From the NCBI GenBank assembly GCA_036984305.1, contig BQWY01000001.1, positions 1,178,001 through 1,242,000 on the forward strand: DNA of 64,000 nucleotides. Direction: 5' to 3'. A program made the translations under genes and the position numbers. Each line of letters begins with the position of its first letter. Within the stretch, counting starts at the first letter, position 1. Of the stretch, positions 20,720-37,210 are shown piece by piece. The notes beneath the pieces are model-generated. The model was not told where the DNA came from. It did not search any database and saw only the letters and a list, made by a program, of their open reading frames with translations. The DNA is from Nitrospira sp. Lineage in GTDB: Bacteria; Nitrospirota; Nitrospiria; Nitrospirales; Nitrospiraceae.

Positions 20720-22945
20720 TTACCGCCAAAGTCGTTGATACCATTTCAAATCGTCGGGGGCCGGTCCGTCGAGTTTCATGGAAACTCTGATGGCTTGGAT
20801 ATCCCACCCGGTGAGGTTGGCCAGGGTTTGCGCCTCCCGTTCATAGCGTGTGCGGAGGTGCTTCCGGTAGGCCGTTACAGCCGGGCAGTCATCCGTGCCC
20901 GTCCAAGGATGCCGGAGGATATATCGAGCTTGAAAGTTCGACCGGTCGGATGTTTCCTGAAACATCAGATCCTCGGGAAAATGCGCGGCGTCATACCGCA
21001 CGTGCAGCCTGGTCAGAAAGACGCGTCGTGCCTGGCTGAGAATGCCTTGCCCTCTGTGCCCGTCTTCGTCCTGCCAAAACACTCCGAGGCCACGTAGCTC
21101 TTCAGCGGAAAGAGGATTCGCCGCACAGGGATCGCACCAGTTCATATCCCAGGCATATTCCAGGAACACGCCCCGCTGGCGTTCGCGCTTCACCTGTTGC
21201 GCGAACATGTCGCGGTAGAAATCGCCGAACTGTTCCTTCACGTAGACGGGAATCTCCTGTGCGTCCGGCAACCGGATCGTTCGGTAGTTGGTGGTCTCCA
21301 CCCGACCTTGCCGGGTGAGAACGTAAATGAACAATTCCTGCGCGCCGTCGGCATTCACCGTGCCCAAACGAATGGGGAGCATGAACTTCCTCGATTCGAA
21401 GGCAATCTGCAGCGGCCGCAGGTGGGTGGCCCCGAGCTTTGCCTGCTCCGCGAGGTTCACTTTTGCGACAAAGAACTTCATGCCTTGCCTCACGTAGCTG
21501 TGGAGCACGGCGGAGGCACCCTGGGGGATCCGGTATCCGTTTTCGGTCAGCCACGTCTCAAGTCCCGCGCTTTCCTGGGCCGAGAGGATCAGGATATCGT
21601 ACTCACCGACCGTATAGCGCGCCTCAACCGTGACGCCCAGGGCACGGGCGCGTTCAGGAGCCGACGCCGAAGCCGGTAACCGATCTTCAAGCGCTCGCAT
21701 ACCCTTGAGCGACTCCATCTCGTAGCGCGTGCAGGGATTCGGGTCGAAATACTCGACCAAACGTGGAGCCGAATAGTCGGCCAGATGTTTCAGCGCGGCA
21801 GCATCGCCCACGTGGATCTGATCTTTCTCGATAAGCGTGGGGACGGGCACGACCATCGCAAACTCTTGTACGTCGCCGCGGAAATCGTTCGCCATCGTGA
21901 TCACGGTTTTGTTGTCGTGACGGGCGATGGCCACTTCGGAAGCTTTGTTGAACAGGCTGGTATCGGCCTTTGCCACGTAGAACCCGCAAAAGGCCGAGAC
22001 CTGGGAACTCCACGCAAAGAGGATGAGGACAAGGACGCCGAAGGGCAGAGACCGTTTCATGGAAACCTCCTTTGTCATGAGTGGGATGCGTGCCGCGTAC
22101 AGCGCAGCCATCGGCACCGGCGGCAGAGTGGGCGATGGAACCCTAAACCAGGAATAGCGAATTCCCGGTAGCAATCGATCAATGAGTGGGACGAATGGGG
22201 CCAGCGTGACCAGCGACCAGAGTAGGGCGCTCGGACGATACAGAGAGAACTGGATGGCATAAGCGCTGAGGGCCACGAATGCCCCATGGACCAGTCGGCC
22301 GGTCCGTGAATCAGGCGTTGTCTTGGGATCCGAGGTCATGAAGAAGGCAAACAGGAGCAACGCGCCTGTTTCGAGTTGGTGGAGGGGAATCGTGAGCGGA
22401 TCGCCCAGCCACAGGGCTCGCCCGAGCAGGATGAGGCTATACGTGGCGAGAAAGGCGAGGCTCGTATCGCTGCGTGTCGCACGCGCGACCACCATCGTCC
22501 CGAGGCAGGCCATCAGAAAGCCCACGATGGCTTCTCGCCCCCATTGCCCCGCGGAAACCCAGCCCAGTTCGGTGGCGACCATGATCGTCAACGCGAGCGC
22601 CGTGGGATTGAAGACATGCTTGCCGTTCCACCGGATGACAAACTTACTGACTATCGCAACAAACGCCGCCAGCGCGGCGACGGTGAGATCATTGGTTCTG
22701 AGCAACAGACACAGCGACAGTGATGAAATCAGGGCGCTCTTGGGATCGAATGACGGGAGGTTCGCTATGCGCGTGCCGGCGTACTGCGTCAGCAGCGCGG
22801 CGCCGATCGTGACGGCAATTTGCAGGATTGTAACGTCGAACCGCAGCCGAAGTAGGCCGTAGGTCAATAATATACTCAGGCTCGCGATCTGAAGTAGGCG
22901 AGGGTCGGAGCACTGCAGTGTGGTTTTCAGCCTGCTGAGCGTCAT
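20720..22945 (-). CDS. RnfD/NqrB-like membrane domain in one frame with secreted DUF2330 protein
   Basis: One uninterrupted frame of 741 codons from ATG 22945 (GAGG 6 bases upstream). Residues 1-285: polytopic membrane protein of the RnfD/NqrB type, with the family signature MTSDPKTTPDSRTG and FNPTALALT; no SGAT-type flavinylation motif is seen. Residues 296-741: a complete DUF2330 protein with its own signal peptide (MKRSLPFG, hydrophobic core, VSAFCGFY), then the conserved MANDFRGDVQEFAMVVPVP. The second part has its own ATG at 22060 with AAGGAGG 5 bases upstream, so it is almost surely also made as a separate 446-residue exported protein. Related pairs are known to me as separate adjacent genes; here the first lacks a stop. 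DUF2330 function is unknown; the pair suggests an envelope redox function. Confidence 0.85.
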   Translation of the reverse strand: MTLSRLKTTLQCSDPRLLQIASLSILLTYGLLRLRFDVTILQIAVTIGAALLTQYAGTRIANLPSFDPKSALISSLSLCLLLRTNDLTVAALAAFVAIVSKFVIRWNGKHVFNPTALALTIMVATELGWVSAGQWGREAIVGFLMACLGTMVVARATRSDTSLAFLATYSLILLGRALWLGDPLTIPLHQLETGALLLFAFFMTSDPKTTPDSRTGRLVHGAFVALSAYAIQFSLYRPSALLWSLVTLAPFVPLIDRLLPGIRYSWFRVPSPTLPPVPMAALYAARIPLMTKEVSMKRSLPFGVLVLILFAWSSQVSAFCGFYVAKADTSLFNKASEVAIARHDNKTVITMANDFRGDVQEFAMVVPVPTLIEKDQIHVGDAAALKHLADYSAPRLVEYFDPNPCTRYEMESLKGMRALEDRLPASASAPERARALGVTVEARYTVGEYDILILSAQESAGLETWLTENGYRIPQGASAVLHSYVRQGMKFFVAKVNLAEQAKLGATHLRPLQIAFESRKFMLPIRLGTVNADGAQELFIYVLTRQGRVETTNYRTIRLPDAQEIPVYVKEQFGDFYRDMFAQQVKRERQRGVFLEYAWDMNWCDPCAANPLSAEELRGLGVFWQDEDGHRGQGILSQARRVFLTRLHVRYDAAHFPEDLMFQETSDRSNFQARYILRHPWTGTDDCPAVTAYRKHLRTRYEREAQTLANLTGWDIQAIRVSMKLDGPAPDDLKWYQRLWR
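22061..22072 (-). promoter_or_regulatory. Internal ribosome binding site for DUF2330
   Basis: AAAGGAGG lies 5 bases before ATG 22060 on the minus strand, inside the longer reading frame. In the +1 frame a TGA falls just upstream (near 22077), exactly where a separate upstream gene would be expected to stop. Confidence 0.75.
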
Positions 22946-24161: not shown

Positions 24162-24626
24162 ATGATGACGAAGGGAAATGCGAACGTGAAGCCGAGCCGC
24201 TCAGCCATTTCAGCAGAAGCCGTCAGTGCCATCGGGCGTGGGGATCTCGTTCACGCTATCAGGCTCACGCGTGAACAAACCGGCCTAGGACTGAAAGAGG
24301 CTAAAGAGCTTGTCGAGACACACGGCCGAGATGACACACACCCGAACACGTCGGGAGGGTCGAGTTCCGTTGTGGCGACGGAGGCGGTCGTCGCACTACA
24401 GAAGGGCAAGCTGATTGACGCGGTCAAGGCGTTCCGGGAGAGGAACGGCGGGGGCTTGAAGGATGCGAAAGAAGCGGTAGAACGATACCTTGACGAACAT
24501 CCGCTGACGAAACGGCAGTTCCGTGAAGCCGCCTTACGTGATCGAAGACGAATTGGTATGATCATCCTGGCCTTGCTCGTCGCTTTGGCTCTGGGCTATG
24601 TACTGGCGACCGGACAGCCAGGCTGA
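24162..24626 (+). CDS. Membrane-anchored protein with two L7/L12 C-terminal-like modules
   Basis: A 154-residue protein. Two short modules resemble the helical hairpin of ribosomal protein L7/L12 CTD: AIRLTREQTGLGLKEAKELVE (about residues 28-50) and AVKAFRERNGGGLKDAKEAVE (about 87-107). They are followed by a basic stretch and one C-terminal membrane helix (about 133-150). The L7/L12 NTD and hinge are absent, so this is not a ribosomal stalk protein; free-standing copies of this fold are known but poorly studied. AAGGAG sits 5 bases before ATG 24162 (8 before the next ATG). The C-terminal anchor would leave the modules in the cytoplasm. First of three small genes in one direction. Confidence 0.85.
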   Translation: MMTKGNANVKPSRSAISAEAVSAIGRGDLVHAIRLTREQTGLGLKEAKELVETHGRDDTHPNTSGGSSSVVATEAVVALQKGKLIDAVKAFRERNGGGLKDAKEAVERYLDEHPLTKRQFREAALRDRRRIGMIILALLVALALGYVLATGQPG

Positions 24627-25578: not shown

Positions 25579-27030
25579 CTAGTCGACCTCTTGGAGTTTA
25601 AGGTAGTTGGTTCCGCCAGGGTAGCCAATGCTCGTCCCCGAGAGGATCACGACCCGCTCGCCGGTCTTGACGAGTCCTTCCCCTTTGACACGGCGAACGG
25701 CCTCATCCACCCGGGTATCCGTCTGATCGATGGGCATCATCGTGCGGGGAATCACACCCCAGTAGAGCGCCATTTGCCTCCTGACGAACTCGTGTGGCGT
25801 GAATGCGATGATCGGAGCAGCCGGACGCTGCTTCGAAATCAACTGAGCCGTCCGCCCCAGTTCGCTGAAGGCCACGATGGCACGGGCTCGGATCGAAGAC
25901 ACGGCGTAGAAGGCCGCGGTGCAAATGGCCTCTGGAATTGACTCGTTGTCTCGCTCGGGCTCTTGTCGCGACTTGGTCTCCGTTTCAGCCCCCGTTTCCG
26001 CGGCTCGGATAATGCGATCCATGACTTTGACCGACGCGTATGCGTGGGCACCCACCGCCGTCTCTGCGGACAGCATGACGGCATCGGTTCCATCCAAGAC
26101 GGCGTTGGCGACGTCGGATGCCTCCGCTCTGGTCGGCCGTGGTTGCTGGATCATCGATTCGAGCATCTGCGTGGCGGTGATGACCAGACGGCGCCGGCGG
26201 TTGGCTTCCGCGATGATCCGTTTCTGCAACATCGGCACGAACTCGGGACCCATTTCGACCCCCAAATCTCCTCGGGCGATCATCACGCCGTCGGCCGCGT
26301 CGAGAATGGCGTCCAGGGCCGTCAGCGCTTCGGCGCGTTCGATTTTTGCGATGATGGGTTGGTGCCCTCCGCAGGCTTCCACCACGCGGCGCGCCATCCG
26401 GATGTCGTCCGGGCCTCGGACAAACGAGAGCGCGATGTAGTCGACCTGATGCGAGACGCCGAACCGGATATCATCCCGATCCTTATCAGTGAGCGCGGGG
26501 GCGCTGACGTCCGTGCCCGGGAGGTTGATTCCCTTATGCGATCCGATCCATCCTCCCGTTTCGACGAGGCAGTCAACGGCTCCCTCTCCGATTCTATCCG
26601 CTACCAGTTCGACGGAGCCATCGTTGATCAAGATTCGAGCGCCGGGACGGAGGTCCCGAGTCAGCGACTGATAGGCCACGGGGATCTCGATCACTTCGGA
26701 GTGGCCACGTGTGCCTGGATCGAGTGTTCGATCGGTGGTGGCGCCGGTCGGTCGCAGGCGGACGGTTTGGCCAGCCGTCACGTCGACGCCTGCCTCGGGT
26801 AACTCCCCTACGCGAAGACGCGGGCCCTGCAAGTCTTGGATGATCGCGACGGTGGTGCCTCGCCGGTCCGCGGCCTCCCGAATTGCCGAGATAGCGGCGG
26901 CATGGGAGTCATGAGTGCTGTGCGAGAAATTCAATCGGGCGGCATCCATGCCGGCCCCGATCAGGCGATCGAGCATCTCCAACGAATCACTGGCTGGGCC
27001 GATAGTAGAAACAATCTTGGCTTTTCGCAT
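25579..27030 (-). CDS. pyk: Pyruvate kinase
   Basis: A 483-residue glycolytic enzyme converting phosphoenolpyruvate and ADP to pyruvate and ATP. Clear marks: KIVSTIGPAS at the N-terminus, RLNFSHSTHD, KIERAEAL with the catalytic Lys, MIARGDLGVEMG with metal-binding acid residues, and TATQMLESM. The C-terminal allosteric domain is present (RARAIVAFSELGRTAQLISK) and length is normal. ATG 27030 puts the family-typical MRKAKIV at the start; in-frame GTG/TTG codons upstream would add 4-7 extra residues. Divergent from the phosphofructokinase fusion gene, sharing an 85-base control region. Confidence 0.96.
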   Translation of the reverse strand: MRKAKIVSTIGPASDSLEMLDRLIGAGMDAARLNFSHSTHDSHAAAISAIREAADRRGTTVAIIQDLQGPRLRVGELPEAGVDVTAGQTVRLRPTGATTDRTLDPGTRGHSEVIEIPVAYQSLTRDLRPGARILINDGSVELVADRIGEGAVDCLVETGGWIGSHKGINLPGTDVSAPALTDKDRDDIRFGVSHQVDYIALSFVRGPDDIRMARRVVEACGGHQPIIAKIERAEALTALDAILDAADGVMIARGDLGVEMGPEFVPMLQKRIIAEANRRRRLVITATQMLESMIQQPRPTRAEASDVANAVLDGTDAVMLSAETAVGAHAYASVKVMDRIIRAAETGAETETKSRQEPERDNESIPEAICTAAFYAVSSIRARAIVAFSELGRTAQLISKQRPAAPIIAFTPHEFVRRQMALYWGVIPRTMMPIDQTDTRVDEAVRRVKGEGLVKTGERVVILSGTSIGYPGGTNYLKLQEVD

Positions 27031-27044
27031 GCGCTCGTACACTC

Positions 27045-27073
27045 TTGACAAGACAATAGCAGCGGCCCACAGT
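27045..27073 (+). promoter_or_regulatory. Promoter candidate for the phosphofructokinase fusion
   Basis: -35 TTGACA (27045-27050), 17-base spacer, -10 CACAGT (27068-27073, 3 of 6). It overlaps the pyk promoter on the other strand. Confidence 0.35.
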
Positions 27074-27115: not shown

Positions 27116-29425
27116 ATGCAGCCTACCACAAACGCCCTGCATTTCGTGACTGTCGAAGGTCTCCTGGCCTATGGAGAACGTTTCGCGACCGCCTCGGCTC
27201 GAGAACCGGGCATGCCGACGATGCCGCCGGCGTCAACGAACCGGGCCGGTCGCACGCCGGCTGCGATGGACGCGATCCGGCTCTTCGTCGATCGTGCAGG
27301 CCAGGGGTTCGACGATGCGGAAGCCTATCGGGGAGCCAGGCGCGCCGTCATCGACGACGCCTGCGCCGGAGACGAATTGGTCTTCTTTGCCGCCTGGAAC
27401 CGACTGTTGGCCGAGGGGGCGCTGGCACCGCTGCTCCGCGCGCCGATCCGCACGATTGTGAAGCCAACCACGCGCCGACCGGTGGCGATCGTGCCGCGCG
27501 CGCAACTCACGCCGCAACTGGCCGAAGGACGCATTGTCTTGGATCTGGGCGACGAGCGTTTTTGGCTCTTGCCGCGGGATCTTGCCGACCGCACGCTGTT
27601 CTTTACCATGCGCCACGGTATCTCCCGCGTGGAGAGTAAGACTCACCGAGTCGGGCGACGATTGGCCAATCAATTGGATTCGGAACGAGGCGTTCAGCGT
27701 GCGGATTCCGTCGGTGCCGCGCTCGCACGCATGGTCGGTGTGGTGGGGCAACAATTGGATTTTCTCCACCTCTCCAATTACCTGGACCCGCAGACGTTCC
27801 TCCATTACATCAGTCGAAGCCCCAATACGCGGCAGCTGTACGAACGCGTGATTGCTGCCTTGGTACAGTCCCCCGCCTCCTCGATCGAACCGGCCTGGGA
27901 AGCGGCGCTGGAGTCGTCGGATTTCGGCTGGCTCACGGGAGTGGAGAAAAGCATCGAGGCGGAGGAACTCGCCACCGCGTTCGGCGTGGACGTCAAAACA
28001 GCCAAGCGTTTGATCAAGGATCCTCTGTATTGTTATCCGGGCGGCAACTCCTTCTTCGATCTCTACGTCGATGTCATCGACGGCCTGCACAAGCTGGGGG
28101 CCGCACGCAGCGGCAAAGTGGCGTGCCTCTACACCCATAGTTCGACGCTTCGGGCGCTCATGATTTACTTGGACCCGAGGCCTTTCCACGAAGCCTTCAC
28201 CGAATTCAGCGACTACAAGGAAAGTCAGGACAACGTCGTCTTGCTCACCTATGAACATGGGCGTTTGTCGGGGTATTCCACCGCGGTCGGACTGTCGGAA
28301 CGGGAACGAACGGTGCGGGAGAGCTGGCTGAGCACCGAGCAGGTCCGGAAGGACCGGGTAGCCCTACGACCGCGACAAATCAAGCGCATTATCGCATTGG
28401 TGTCCGGGGGTGATTTCGCCGGGGCCGGTGCGGCGCTGAAGGAACTGCGCGTGACAGGGAATCGGTTCGGCCTGGACATTCATTTCGTCCGCCATGGATT
28501 TCTCGGCCTCGCGAACAATTGGATCGAAGTCGTCACGGAGGAGGATACGCGTGGACTGAGCAGCCACGCGAGCAGCCCCATTGGCAGCAGTCGATTCGAA
28601 GATTTCAAAGACGAAGCCGTTCAGCGGGCGGCGATGCGGCATCTGGAGCCGTTTATGCAGGACGCCGCGCTGGTCGTGTTGGGGGGAGACGGCAGCCTTC
28701 GCGGCGCGCGCGCCATCTTTGAGGCGTTCGGCGTCCAGGTGGTCGGCATCCCCGGCACCATCGACAATAACATCCAGGGCACGACCTCCCTTGGCTTCCA
28801 CTCCGCCATCGCGTTGGCCAATCAATCCATCGAGTCTCTCAAGGCGACGAGTGCCGCGATGGGAAGCGTGTTCTTCGTCGAGGTGATGGGGGCGGGCTCC
28901 GGCCACCTTGCGCTGGCGTGCGCGTACCAGGCGAGAGCGGAAGGTTTGCTGGTCAACGAGCATCCGGATCCGGATGCCTACATCGACGAGATCATCCTGG
29001 GTACGCTGAAGCGAACACTCGGGGTTCCGAATAAGAGCCACTTGTTTGTCGTCGCCGAACGGACGCCGCACCGGCATCATCCCGAGGGGGGCGTCCACGG
29101 TCTCGTCGACTATGTCGCCTCGGCCATCGCACAATGGCCGCAACGCCAGCGCCGGCCGAATCAGTACGCTCTGACACAGGCCACGAAAGCGACGATCCTC
29201 GGGCACACGCTCCGCGGAGCTCCGCCGACACCGGAGGATAAATCGATCGCACAGCATCTGGCCTATGAGGCCGTCATCCGATTGGTCCGGCGTCCCGAGG
29301 ACGCCGTCGGCTGCATGTTGGCGTATCGCGAGCCCGGAGCGATCGATGCCATTCCGCTCCATGCCGTGGCGCCCAAACAGTTCGATTGGGAGGTGTTCGC
29401 CCGCATGCATGGCACGGAACTCTAG
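27116..29425 (+). CDS. Histidine phosphatase-6-phosphofructokinase fusion
   Basis: A 769-residue protein. Residues 1-155 match nothing I know. Residues 160-400 resemble the histidine phosphatase (PGAM/FBPase-2) fold: FFTMRHGIS with catalytic RHG (166-168), YPGGNSFFDLY in the place of the YPxGESYxDL motif of FBPase-2, and LYTHSSTLRAL carrying the second His (341). Residues 423-760 are a PFK-1-type 6-phosphofructokinase: SGGD (430-433), GGDGS (523-527), PGTIDNN (546-552; base Asp550) and MGAGSGHLAL (591-600). Gly in GGDGS and PGTID point to ATP rather than pyrophosphate as donor. The second Asp of TIDND and the Arg of MGR are replaced. GAGG near ATG 27116 supports the start. Opposing phosphatase and kinase activities on one chain are inference. 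Confidence 0.88.
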   Translation: MQPTTNALHFVTVEGLLAYGERFATASAREPGMPTMPPASTNRAGRTPAAMDAIRLFVDRAGQGFDDAEAYRGARRAVIDDACAGDELVFFAAWNRLLAEGALAPLLRAPIRTIVKPTTRRPVAIVPRAQLTPQLAEGRIVLDLGDERFWLLPRDLADRTLFFTMRHGISRVESKTHRVGRRLANQLDSERGVQRADSVGAALARMVGVVGQQLDFLHLSNYLDPQTFLHYISRSPNTRQLYERVIAALVQSPASSIEPAWEAALESSDFGWLTGVEKSIEAEELATAFGVDVKTAKRLIKDPLYCYPGGNSFFDLYVDVIDGLHKLGAARSGKVACLYTHSSTLRALMIYLDPRPFHEAFTEFSDYKESQDNVVLLTYEHGRLSGYSTAVGLSERERTVRESWLSTEQVRKDRVALRPRQIKRIIALVSGGDFAGAGAALKELRVTGNRFGLDIHFVRHGFLGLANNWIEVVTEEDTRGLSSHASSPIGSSRFEDFKDEAVQRAAMRHLEPFMQDAALVVLGGDGSLRGARAIFEAFGVQVVGIPGTIDNNIQGTTSLGFHSAIALANQSIESLKATSAAMGSVFFVEVMGAGSGHLALACAYQARAEGLLVNEHPDPDAYIDEIILGTLKRTLGVPNKSHLFVVAERTPHRHHPEGGVHGLVDYVASAIAQWPQRQRRPNQYALTQATKATILGHTLRGAPPTPEDKSIAQHLAYEAVIRLVRRPEDAVGCMLAYREPGAIDAIPLHAVAPKQFDWEVFARMHGTEL

Positions 29426-32741: not shown

Positions 32742-33755
32742 TCAGGAAGGGAGGGACCAGGGCAACAGCGTCTCGATCGACCGGAACTTCACGCCGAGGA
32801 TGCGGCAGAGCGCATACTGTCGATCGAATCGATTTGTGATAGCGATCAGGTCCCGCAGATCAGTGAGACCCATGCGACCCCAGCCGGCGACATGAAGGAC
32901 CGGCAAGGGATAGTCCGTCCCGAAGAGTAATCGGTCGTGCAGTTCCGGGTGTCGCCGGAGATGGAGCAGCATGCGCATGCGATTGAGCAGCGTCAGCGCG
33001 GAGATATCCGCATAGAAGTTGGGGAAGCGGGCCGCGAAATCTTGAAACGTCGGAAGGAATTTTTCATACAGCATGAGACCGTAGCTGCAAGCATGGGCCG
33101 CAATCACCGTGACGCCTTGCTCGAGTGGGACCCGCAGCCGATCCGGGTCGCCGACGGATTGATCTTTTCCGATCAGGCTGAACTCATAGCCGACATGGCT
33201 CAAGAGCGGCAACTTCCGCCGGGCCAACGTCCGATAGAACGGGATATAGGCTTTGTTCGCGGGATCGAACTGCTGCGCATTGGGCAGCACTTTCACGAGG
33301 ACCGCGCCGGCGTCGGCGCAACGATGCAGCTCCTCGACGGCGTCGCGGCGCTGCGGATTGATGGAGACACCGGCCAGAAACGCATCCGGGTAGCGACGGG
33401 TGGCGTCGAGTACATAGCGATTGCTCACCAGAAAATCCGTTTGCGACCGATCGAGCTGCCCGTCAGAGCCGTAGACGCCGTCCATACCGAGGAGGACCGC
33501 CTGCCTGACGCGTTGCGAGCCACGCAGCTCCGCCAGGAGGTCGTCCAGGTATTTTTGGTTGGCACGGCTGGGATCGCTCTGCGGGAGCCGGTGCTTCCAC
33601 AGGAGAAAGCGAAACAGGAGACTCTTGAGCATTTTGGCGGAAATGAAACAGCCGTTGTCCCCCTCCGGCAGGGCCGCGAGGTGGACGTGGCAGTCAATCA
33701 TTCGGGCCTTGTCCGATTCCGCGTCGTACCGTCCGGCCTGTCGATCATCGTTCAT
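32742..33755 (-). CDS. Amidohydrolase-2-like metal-dependent hydrolase
   Basis: A 337-residue TIM-barrel hydrolase of the amidohydrolase-2 (COG2159) type. Visible metal residues: DCHVHLAAL after MI, LLSHVGYEF, VIAAHACS, and the closing FGTDYPLPV with the catalytic Asp. Members decarboxylate or hydrolyse small aromatic or lactone substrates; here none can be fixed. Its ATG overlaps the TGA of the MFS/acyltransferase/ligase gene (ATGA), so it is translationally coupled and probably acts in lipid or envelope metabolism with it. An insert FLLWKHRLPQSDPSRANQKY lies near the N-terminus. Confidence 0.88.
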   Translation of the reverse strand: MNDDRQAGRYDAESDKARMIDCHVHLAALPEGDNGCFISAKMLKSLLFRFLLWKHRLPQSDPSRANQKYLDDLLAELRGSQRVRQAVLLGMDGVYGSDGQLDRSQTDFLVSNRYVLDATRRYPDAFLAGVSINPQRRDAVEELHRCADAGAVLVKVLPNAQQFDPANKAYIPFYRTLARRKLPLLSHVGYEFSLIGKDQSVGDPDRLRVPLEQGVTVIAAHACSYGLMLYEKFLPTFQDFAARFPNFYADISALTLLNRMRMLLHLRRHPELHDRLLFGTDYPLPVLHVAGWGRMGLTDLRDLIAITNRFDRQYALCRILGVKFRSIETLLPWSLPS

Positions 33756-36700
33756 GCAGATGGTCGTCCCTGCGCAGGGCCCCGCTGCATGGCTTCGGTC
33801 GCGAATCGCTTGAGTTCGCGCAGATCGAGCTTGCCCGTTCCAAGCAGGGGCAACTGCTCAACCTTGAACCATGCGTCTTTGCGGGGCAGAAACAGATTCG
33901 AGAGACCGGAGGCGGCGGCCCTTTCGAGAATCTCCGAGATCCGCGCAGGGTCCAGTGTGTGGAGGACCGCCAGCTGTTCACCCTTTTTTTCGTCCGGCAC
34001 GCCGGTGACGGCCAAGATCATGGTTTCGGCGCCCGCCGCTTCGTGCAACACCTCTTCGACGCGGCCGTGCGGAACCATTTCGCCTCCGATCTTGGAAAAG
34101 CGCGAAAGGCGGTCGGTGATAAAGAGAAATCCGTCCTCGTCAACGTAGGCCACGTCTCCGGTCACGTACCAGCCGTCGCGCACGACCTTCGCGGTGAGTT
34201 CCGGTTGCCCGAGGTACCCTTGCATGACGTTCGCGCCCTTCACGAGCAGCATCCCGGCGGTCCCTGTCGGGAGCGGCGCGAAGGTGTCGGGGTCGACGAT
34301 TCGCACTGAGATGCCGGGGAGAGGTTGCCCGACGGAGCCGCGCCGCGAGGCCGGTTGGTAAAAGCCCGCCGCCCGGAAGTCCGGACAGTTGACCGACACG
34401 ACCGGCGCGCATTCCGTCGTGCCGTAGCCTTCCATCGGGCGTATGCCGAATCGGTCCTGAAAGGCCTGGGCGAGCCGCTCCGAGAGTTTTTCCGCTCCTG
34501 TCAATACGACTCGGAGCGAGCCGAATTGCTCAGGGGTGCAGCGCCGCAGATAGAGCTGCAAGAACGTCGGTGTGGCGATACAGACAGTCAGACGATAGCG
34601 GTGGGTCATCTCGCCCACGGCCACGACGTCCAATGGAGAGGGAAGATAGACGACGCCGGTGCCGTGAATCATCGCCAGCCAGAGGGGCAGCATATAGCCA
34701 AACGAATGAAAGAAGGGAAGAATGCCCAGCAGCCGATCCTTGGCGTCCACGTGAAAGATTTGAAGCGCGGCTTGAATATTCGAGTCGATGTTGAAGTGCG
34801 ACAGCATGACGCCCTTGGGCTGCCCCGTGCTGCCGCTGCTGAATATGATGGTCGCGATATCGTCCATGGTAGGCGGCTTCGTCGCGCCGCAGGCCCGTTC
34901 CAGGACCGAGAGCGGCGCAAACAGGCCGAGCGCCATGGCGGCCAATCGCTCCTTTGTTCCGATTGCCTTGACCAGGTCGTCCAACCAGAGAACCGTCACG
35001 TTGGACGGGAGTTCCAGTTTGGCTTTGTCGACGAACAGCCTGCTCGTCACGATGGTCTGGAGCGCGGCTTGGGTAACGACGCCTTCAAGTCCGGCTCGCC
35101 CGACGGTGTAGTTGAGATTCACGGTTGTATGGCCGGTGAGCGTCGAGGCAAGATTGAGAAGCGCGCCGCCGACGCTGGGCGGCAGCAGCAGCCCAATATT
35201 GCGCTGGCCCTTCCAGTGTGGTCGAAACAGGCGAGCGAGCGCCACCGCTCCGGTGATCGCTTGCCAGCTGGATACGTGCGGTCTGGTCACGTCGGCCATG
35301 GCAAATCGGAACGGGTGTCGCCGCATGGCGCGAATGGCGGATCGATGCAAAGGCGAACGATCGTTCTTGCGTAGCCGCCAGGCCTGCTCGCTCAACTCTT
35401 GGATCGCCTGCCTGAGGTCGGATGCGGAACTCTCCGGGGGTAATGGTGGTCCGAACGAGATGGTGATCGGATAGGGGATGCGCTCCGGCCATTTTGCCAG
35501 GAAGCGGCCGCCGACGAAACTGAAGATGCTGCCCCAAATACGATCGAGATGGACGGGCACAATCGGTGTCGTCCGTCCCTTGATGATCCGCTCGAAGCCT
35601 CGACGGAACGGCAACAAGCCTCCCGTTCTCGTAATCTGGCCCTCGGGGAATATGCAGACCACTTCTCCACGATCCAGGCAGTGGCCTGCTGCCCGAAGCG
35701 CTTGCAAGATGACGCGAGGGCCGCCGGCGGAGGCAATGGGGATCGCCCCCGATAACGTCATGAACGGACGCAGGAGCGGGACGTCGAAATAGCGCGAGTC
35801 CACGAGGAATCGAATAGGGCGGTCGAGGCAGGTGATGAGGAGCACCGCGTCCAAAAACGAGACGTGGTTTGGGACGAGTAATGCCCCTCCCTCCGCCGGT
35901 ACGTGCTCCTGGCCGAGCACGCGTATGCGGTAGAGCGTTTGCGTCGCCAACAGCAGGAGGGCTCGAACGAACGATTCCGGTAGGAGCCAGAGAGCGCAGA
36001 CGGCTCCGACGACCGCGCCGAGACCGGCCACCACGAAGATGTCCGCCGCACGCAGGCCGAGCTGTCCCAACAGGCCGGCTCCCACGGAACCAGCCAGGAC
36101 ACCCGAAAACACAGCCGTGTTTTGGAGCGCAATGACAGCTCCTCGGCGATCCTTCGGCGCGCGCCACTGAACCAACGCGTTGACGGGCACGACGAACAAT
36201 CCGCTGGAGAGGCCCAGGACGGTCAACAGGATCATGGTGGCGAGAAATCCCGGCGACCATAGGCCGATTGCCAAGAGGATGATCGCCATGCCGATGACGC
36301 CGAACGGAATCAATCCAACTTCGATCTTCGAGGAGGAGAGTTTCCCAGCCAAAAAGGCTCCGATGCCGATCCCTGCTGCCAGCACGGTCATGGGAATGCC
36401 CGCGAGCGCATCTGAAAGTGCCAGCGCGCCTTTCGCATAGATCAAGATGTCCTGCCCGACGAGGCTGGCCAGCGTCCAGAAAAAGATATTGCCCATGATC
36501 GCCAGCCGCAGCACGCGGTCGTCGGTCAGTGCCGACCAAGCGCCTCGCAATGTGACCCCGAGCCCACCTTCGGCGCGCGCGGGTGGCACCTCGGGGATTG
36601 TCCAGGCCCACCCACAGCCGATACCGGCTACGAGGAGGAGCATCGCACCGGCCATCCACGGATGCGGGTCGGTGAAGTCCAACAGGATTCCGGCGACCGC

Positions 36701-37210
36701 CGTTCCGGAAATAATGGCCATAAAACTCCATAATTCCAGGAGACCATTCCCCGCTGATAATCGTTCGTGCGGCAGCAATTCCGGCAGGATGCCGTATTTC
36801 GCCGGGCTGAAAAACGCGCTGTGCACGCCCATGAGTCCGAGCACAATCAGTGGGAGCAGGGACGCCGATGGATCGAGCCAGAGGGACACCGTGCCTGCCG
36901 CCATCAGGGCGATCTCCAACACCTTCATGCTCATGATCACGGTCCGTTTGCTGATGCGATCGGCGAGGACGCCGGCGACGATGGAGCACAACATGAGCGG
37001 GAGGGTGAACACGACGAAGGCTTTCGTCGTTTGTGCCTGCGAGGCCATCTCGAACCCAGGGTCGCTCCGAGTCAGCTCGAGCGACACCTGCCGAATGGCC
37101 AGCAGGGCGACGATCAGCTTCCAGGCATTGTCGTTGAACGCACCGCAGAACTGAGCGACAAGAAGGCCGCGCAAGGGGTGCCGAGGGGATGCGGATGATG
37201 GGACGGTCAT
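33752..37210 (-). CDS. aas: Three-domain MFS-acyltransferase-acyl-ACP ligase (LplT-Aas-like)
   Basis: A 1152-residue inner-membrane protein for lysophospholipid remodelling. Residues about 10-410: MFS transporter of the LplT type (FCGAFNDNAWKL, DRISKRTVIM). Residues 425-625: PlsC-like acyltransferase with NHVSFLDA (about 445) and FPEGQI (about 520). Residues 650-1145: AMP-dependent acyl ligase with SSGSTGQPKG (about 788), YGTTE (about 930), TGDVAYVDEDGF and the C-terminal Lys in GTGKLDLRELK. In E. coli LplT and Aas are separate; here transport and repair are on one chain. The acyltransferase flips and reacylates lysophosphatidylethanolamine with ACP-bound acyl groups. ATG 37210; preceded by a lipoprotein gene 20 bases upstream. 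Confidence 0.92.
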   Translation of the reverse strand: MTVPSSASPRHPLRGLLVAQFCGAFNDNAWKLIVALLAIRQVSLELTRSDPGFEMASQAQTTKAFVVFTLPLMLCSIVAGVLADRISKRTVIMSMKVLEIALMAAGTVSLWLDPSASLLPLIVLGLMGVHSAFFSPAKYGILPELLPHERLSAGNGLLELWSFMAIISGTAVAGILLDFTDPHPWMAGAMLLLVAGIGCGWAWTIPEVPPARAEGGLGVTLRGAWSALTDDRVLRLAIMGNIFFWTLASLVGQDILIYAKGALALSDALAGIPMTVLAAGIGIGAFLAGKLSSSKIEVGLIPFGVIGMAIILLAIGLWSPGFLATMILLTVLGLSSGLFVVPVNALVQWRAPKDRRGAVIALQNTAVFSGVLAGSVGAGLLGQLGLRAADIFVVAGLGAVVGAVCALWLLPESFVRALLLLATQTLYRIRVLGQEHVPAEGGALLVPNHVSFLDAVLLITCLDRPIRFLVDSRYFDVPLLRPFMTLSGAIPIASAGGPRVILQALRAAGHCLDRGEVVCIFPEGQITRTGGLLPFRRGFERIIKGRTTPIVPVHLDRIWGSIFSFVGGRFLAKWPERIPYPITISFGPPLPPESSASDLRQAIQELSEQAWRLRKNDRSPLHRSAIRAMRRHPFRFAMADVTRPHVSSWQAITGAVALARLFRPHWKGQRNIGLLLPPSVGGALLNLASTLTGHTTVNLNYTVGRAGLEGVVTQAALQTIVTSRLFVDKAKLELPSNVTVLWLDDLVKAIGTKERLAAMALGLFAPLSVLERACGATKPPTMDDIATIIFSSGSTGQPKGVMLSHFNIDSNIQAALQIFHVDAKDRLLGILPFFHSFGYMLPLWLAMIHGTGVVYLPSPLDVVAVGEMTHRYRLTVCIATPTFLQLYLRRCTPEQFGSLRVVLTGAEKLSERLAQAFQDRFGIRPMEGYGTTECAPVVSVNCPDFRAAGFYQPASRRGSVGQPLPGISVRIVDPDTFAPLPTGTAGMLLVKGANVMQGYLGQPELTAKVVRDGWYVTGDVAYVDEDGFLFITDRLSRFSKIGGEMVPHGRVEEVLHEAAGAETMILAVTGVPDEKKGEQLAVLHTLDPARISEILERAAASGLSNLFLPRKDAWFKVEQLPLLGTGKLDLRELKRFATEAMQRGPAQGRPSA

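Follow-up and report, generated by a model that had tools for sequence, protein, structure and literature searches.

What does a histidine phosphatase (HP) fold do when it is joined, in a single chain, to a phosphofructokinase (PFK)? Nitrospira are major nitrite oxidisers, with complete ammonia oxidisers among them, and such a gene lies in the stretch of Nitrospira sp. DNA analysed here, which we call the window (64,000 nucleotides; contig BQWY01000001.1, positions 1,178,001 to 1,242,000). A preliminary description proposed that the two halves carry out opposing activities at the fructose-6-phosphate (F6P)/fructose-1,6-bisphosphate (FBP) step and so form a built-in switch. Key active-site residues are replaced in both halves, and the protein is therefore probably a repurposed regulator or kinase, not a two-way switch. 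The explanation that we prefer, and to which we give about an even chance, is a Nitrospiria-specific chimera: a protein derived from PFK that has taken on a new function, its HP phosphate pocket being regulatory or atypical.

The features concerned, in window coordinates, are these:

25579-27051 (-): pyruvate kinase, divergent neighbour (TIGR01064, 518 bits)
27116-29425 (+): whole coding sequence of the HP-PFK fusion, 769 amino acids (ORF list, translation, homologue conservation)
27116-27589 (+): helical region at the N terminus, residues 1-158, unmatched in Pfam (model)
27590-28300 (+): branch-1 HP fold, residues 159-395 (PF00300 and structure comparison)
27611-27619 (+): RHG motif, R166-H167-G168, kept in 73/73
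27818-27829 (+): SPNT loop, residues 235-238; N237 in 73/73; aligned with GpmA R62, placement ambiguous
27908-27931 (+): LESSDFGW, residues 265-272; S267 at the general-acid Glu position in 73/73
28037-28051 (+): PGGNS loop, residues 308-312, within YPGGNSFFDLY (307-317)
28133-28144 (+): THSS, residues 340-343, with the second catalytic His, H341, kept in 73/73
28376-29371 (+): PfkA-type PFK fold, residues 421-752 (PF00365 and structure comparison)
28682-28696 (+): GGDGS, residues 523-527, ATP-type nucleotide site, kept
28751-28771 (+): PGTIDNN, residues 546-552; base D550 kept, Asp129 equivalent N552 in 72/73
28859-28894 (+): MGSVFFVEVMGA, residues 582-593; Arg162 equivalent S/T/N584, Arg171 equivalent A593
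29183-29218 (+): TKATILGHTLRG, residues 690-701; Arg243 equivalent K691, His249 and Arg252 equivalents kept

The gene is real, with only mechanical ORFs on the opposite strand, and the reading frame, its coordinates and the motifs RHG (166-168), YPGGNSFFDLY (307-317) and THSSTLRAL (340-348) are all present as first described. The source genome holds no second copy of the N-terminal and HP part elsewhere. Pfam profiles searched with the single sequence placed PF00365 on residues 424-720 (E 1.3e-54), while PF00300 stayed below its cut-off (0.024 for the whole chain, 0.0012 for the domain alone); nevertheless, PF00300 matched 24 of 24 family members, the best at 1.6e-5 to 1.6e-6. Alignment of the HP profile with single E. 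coli HPs by hhalign was weak (GpmA, E 0.003, 10% probability), so the HP assignment rests on the PF00300 matches and on structure. A sequence search of the PDB with the same profile gave a best match of only E 0.47 (PhoE/YhfR), FBPase-2 being absent. The whole-chain AlphaFold model (mean pLDDT 71) matched a histidine phosphatase over residues 159-390 (Z 15.5) and E. coli PfkA (1pfk) over residues 421-762 (Z 23.1). When the HP region was modelled alone (residues 139-417; pLDDT 76, pTM 0.78), the matching solved structures were branch-1 histidine phosphatases throughout, with Z about 18 over 190-200 residues, the best being 4ij6 (Z 18.4, rmsd 2.8, 193 residues).

The proposed fusion of a histidine phosphatase to a PFK-1 is thus borne out at the level of fold for both halves, including the branch-1 HP fold of residues 159-395. 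The phosphatase fold does precede the PFK-1 (PfkA) fold, the reverse of the order in PFK-2/FBPase-2, and the kinase is indeed unrelated to PFK-2, since Pfam found PF00365 and no 6PF2K P-loop kinase domain. The suggested likeness to FBPase-2 fared less well: the motifs and the HP fold stand, but the HP half appears no closer to FBPase-2 than to other HPs. FBPase-2 chains occur among its Foldseek matches, ranked under other HPs, and are absent from the VIA matches listed; PspA, PhoE and PGM all outscore FBPase-2 in structure comparison.

We compared the HP residues by alignment with E. coli GpmA, CobC and YtjC, and counted their states over 73 fusion members. R166, H167, G168 and H341 are kept in all 73. 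At the LxE general-acid position (GpmA E88), however, the alignment places S267 in every member, and between R182 and R346 there is no Arg invariant across the 73 that would correspond to the second phosphate-pocket Arg (GpmA R62). Those nearest to invariance are R244 (69/73) and R239 (57/73); the counterpart of GpmA R62 fell at two differing placements, its exact alignment being uncertain. We take the general-acid and pocket-Arg roles of these GpmA positions to be established knowledge of the family. Beside S267, residue 266 is Glu in 66 members, Asp in six and Ser in one, and D269 is present in 73/73; judging from the alignment, E266 or D269 could substitute for the missing general acid, so that the HP half has probably, though not certainly, lost phosphatase activity. 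A phosphohistidine phosphatase of the SixA kind, without a general acid, was also considered; the alignment with E. coli SixA is very poor.

Both domains are under strong purifying selection, with a median omega of 0.07 for the HP and 0.04 for the PFK half; residues 1-158 are the fastest-evolving part of the protein (0.14). Within the HP domain, conservation is higher in the pocket loops than in the remainder (P about 0.001); this, together with the omega of 0.07, indicates that the pocket is in use and rules out a vestigial HP domain.

In the PFK half (E. coli PfkA numbering), G11, R72, G102-S105 (GGDGS, including G104), G124, D127, E222, H249 and R252 are kept. Three arginines are lost from all members that have a residue there (R162 to S/T/N, R171 to A and R243 to K), and D129 is replaced by N in 72/73, L093 alone keeping D. 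By comparison, all eight PfkA-type PFKs compared, seven from the phylum and that of E. coli, keep R162, R243 and D129, and have His at 171 wherever it is not Arg. The fusion also falls short of the NCBIfam ATP-PFK cut-offs (179.6 of 253 bits for PRK03202; 170.7 of 371 for TIGR02482). The whole-chain model is weak at residues 549-616 and 626-704 of the PFK half, so the sugar site is read from the sequence alignment. Elsewhere in our sample, locus L083 (G031:C33) carries tandem PFK genes, one with D104/K124, the residues of the PPi type, and the other with G104/A124.

The stem branch of the PFK half is about 4.45 changes per site, a saturated estimate, and leads to a shallow crown. The fusion PFK is 29-31% identical to E. 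coli PfkA, against 43-47% for PfkA-type PFKs that stand alone in genomes of this phylum. Rapid change that then gives way to near standstill (median omega 0.04) is the signature of a protein whose function has changed.

When 84,980 species genomes were scanned for the fusion, matches came only from Nitrospirota (45 loci, Nitrospira moscoviensis included); because the scan matched exact peptides, distant homologues outside the phylum could be missed. The full-length chain is present in about 75 of 295 Nitrospirota genomes, all within the class of the source genome. Other PFK matches in that sample are at most 37% identical and cover the PFK half only, and it contained no free-standing remodelled half. 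Among the matches listed from plasmid records, only the PFK half was found, with less than 80% of the query covered in every case. Conservation of one continuous frame in about 75 genomes rules out a chance frame, a frameshift or an assembly artefact as the source of the fusion; assembly frameshifts are the apparent cause of the broken copies at L039, L043 and L109.

The preliminary description had asked whether the genome lacks a separate FBPase or PFK, and it lacks neither. A class I FBPase (220 bits) lies beside an aldolase gene that, judging by eye, we take to be class I; no GlpX FBPase was found in the source genome. Class I FBPase is present in 113/116 genomes of the class, with or without the fusion, which therefore does not substitute for it. 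The second PFK is a bona fide ATP-PFK, matching the PRK06830 ATP-PFK equivalog with 623 bits (cut-off 400). This gene (G000:C1:3975453-3976376, L051) aligns with G162, K243 and Y249 at the F6P positions, so these positions vary within the PRK06830-type group.

Among the roughly 72 fusion genomes of the class sample, 38, drawn from two families of the order, have pyruvate kinase adjoining the fusion, either as a divergent gene or as a downstream one on the same strand. In the remaining fusion genomes, including one large clade, it lies elsewhere, and the recurrent neighbours in that clade look non-metabolic. The fusion is the sole PF00365 protein in 10 near-complete genomes (G088, G110, G117, G127, G189, G208, G256, G125, G137 and G206), of which three have a 1-PFK above the cut-off and seven have none.

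Three further genes of the window may be recorded. A single ORF at 20720-22945 (-) combines an NqrB/RnfD-like membrane part (PF03116) with DUF2330 (PF10092), parts that are separate adjacent ORFs at loci L012, L016 and L019. In a small protein at 24162-24626 (+), a match of the ribosomal L7/L12 C-terminal kind is accompanied by a hydrophobic tail. The 1152-residue ORF at 33752-37210 (-) we take, by eye, to be an MFS transporter joined to an acyltransferase and an acyl-CoA ligase, of the lysophospholipid remodelling type.

From the observed domains, residue states, conservation, selection, linkage and separate FBPase and PFK, we infer the activity, ligand and regulation of the protein as follows. 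A PfkA-type PFK would have been joined behind an HP-fold domain and then have changed function. Its predicted binding of ATP/Mg and its catalytic base appear to have been kept, and the PFK half is thus probably a phosphotransferase or a nucleotide-responsive protein. The sugar-phosphate pocket was apparently rebuilt by replacement of Arg162, Arg171, Arg243 and Asp129, so the acceptor is presumably either something other than ordinary F6P or held in a manner new to PFKs. In the HP half the phosphate pocket is conserved but lacks the canonical acid Glu and second Arg; this half most likely serves to bind some phosphorylated metabolite, or to take phosphate slowly on H167, and to tune the kinase half. 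The role of the whole would lie near lower glycolysis, beside pyruvate kinase. More tentatively, as a doubtful extension, the protein might be a new PFK-derived enzyme, or a sensor, for another substrate, in which the HP phosphohistidine and the PFK ATP site would form one phosphoryl relay or feedback unit controlling Nitrospira glycolysis on the pyruvate kinase side.

The neofunctionalised chimera agrees with the two folds (Z 18 for HP, 23 for PFK), with the restriction of the full-length chain to a single class and the absence of free-standing remodelled halves from the phylum sample, with residue changes fixed in 72-73 of 73 members, with the long stem and the low identity to PfkA, with selection on both domains and on the HP pocket loops, with the linkage to pyruvate kinase in two families and with the PRK06830 ATP-PFK and class I FBPase of the same genome. 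Yet where the fusion is the only PF00365 protein, and in seven genomes there is no 1-PFK either, it may simply be the PFK. The weakly modelled sugar site, the candidate acids E266 and D269, the genomes in which pyruvate kinase is not adjacent and the saturation of the stem estimate also count against neofunctionalisation. A less probable reading is that the protein still works as an ATP-dependent 6-phosphofructokinase, though a diverged one, that its HP fold is an accessory regulatory domain, and that it acts alongside pyruvate kinase in glycolysis or in the use of glycogen. The sole-PFK genomes are the best argument for F6P phosphorylation, and the retained equivalents of D127, E222, R72, GGDGS, H249 and R252 and the 38 neighbouring pyruvate kinases fit as well; G162, K243 and Y249 in the PRK06830-type enzyme suggest that some of these losses are tolerable. 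Set against this are the loss of Arg171 and Asp129 together with Arg162 and Arg243, the scores under the ATP-PFK cut-offs and the very long stem.

We consider it unlikely that both halves are pseudoenzymes, forming a metabolite sensor with ATP and a sugar phosphate as its ligands and another protein, such as pyruvate kinase, under its control. Both active sites are altered at fixed positions while pocket conservation is high, and there is a precedent in eukaryotic PFK, whose C-terminal half is inactive and regulatory (PMC12203962), but invariance of both HP catalytic His residues and of the PFK catalytic base is unusual for pure pseudoenzymes. The bifunctional PFK and fructose bisphosphatase first proposed we regard as very unlikely, even with both folds present and RHG and the second His kept. 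Ser at the general-acid position in 73/73, the missing conserved pocket Arg, the replaced arginines and Asp129, the FBPase in 113/116 class genomes, a second PFK above its equivalog cut-off and the apparent lack of any special closeness to FBPase-2 all speak against it; the residue changes and the separate FBPase and PFK rule out the switch as the main reading.

Fixed, strongly selected and tied to pyruvate kinase, this protein combines an undescribed order of domains with a PFK site that has been rebuilt, and shows one way for a PFK to change function. Genome-based metabolic models that score it as a 6-phosphofructokinase may therefore be in error. The PFK superfamily was reviewed in 2025 (PMC12203962). 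That review covers PFK genes duplicated in tandem and, in yeast, an N-terminal fusion of glyoxalase-like type; it points out that the structures available for bacteria represent three phyla only, and it expects new domain fusions. It contains nothing like the HP-PFK fusion, and the word phosphatase is absent from its text. Searches of open-access literature on HP-PFK fusions and on Nitrospira PFK brought up no account of this fusion.

Among known systems, E. coli PfkA (1pfk, PF00365) shares the fold, the GGDGS loop, the ATP-type residues G104 and G124, and D127, R72, E222, H249 and R252. The fusion differs from it in R162 to S/T/N, R171 to A, R243 to K and D129 to N, in its N-terminal HP domain, and in being only 29-31% identical and below the NCBIfam ATP-PFK cut-offs. 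With branch-1 HPs (PspA 4ij6, PhoE 1h2e and dPGM; PF00300) it has in common the fold (Z 17-18), RHG, the second catalytic His and the PGGxS loop, but it has Ser at the aligned general-acid Glu, no conserved second Arg, and a PFK attached. PFK-2/FBPase-2 (PFKFB) likewise has an HP fold on the same chain as a kinase related to sugar phosphates, although there the domain order is opposite; the fusion has a PfkA-type kinase in place of the PFK-2 P-loop fold, and its HP pocket is altered. Yeast PFK, with its glyoxalase-like N-terminal domain (PMC12203962), also carries a domain of an unrelated enzyme family N-terminal to PFK; however, the fusion carries a different domain, and one half of the yeast enzyme is still canonical and active.
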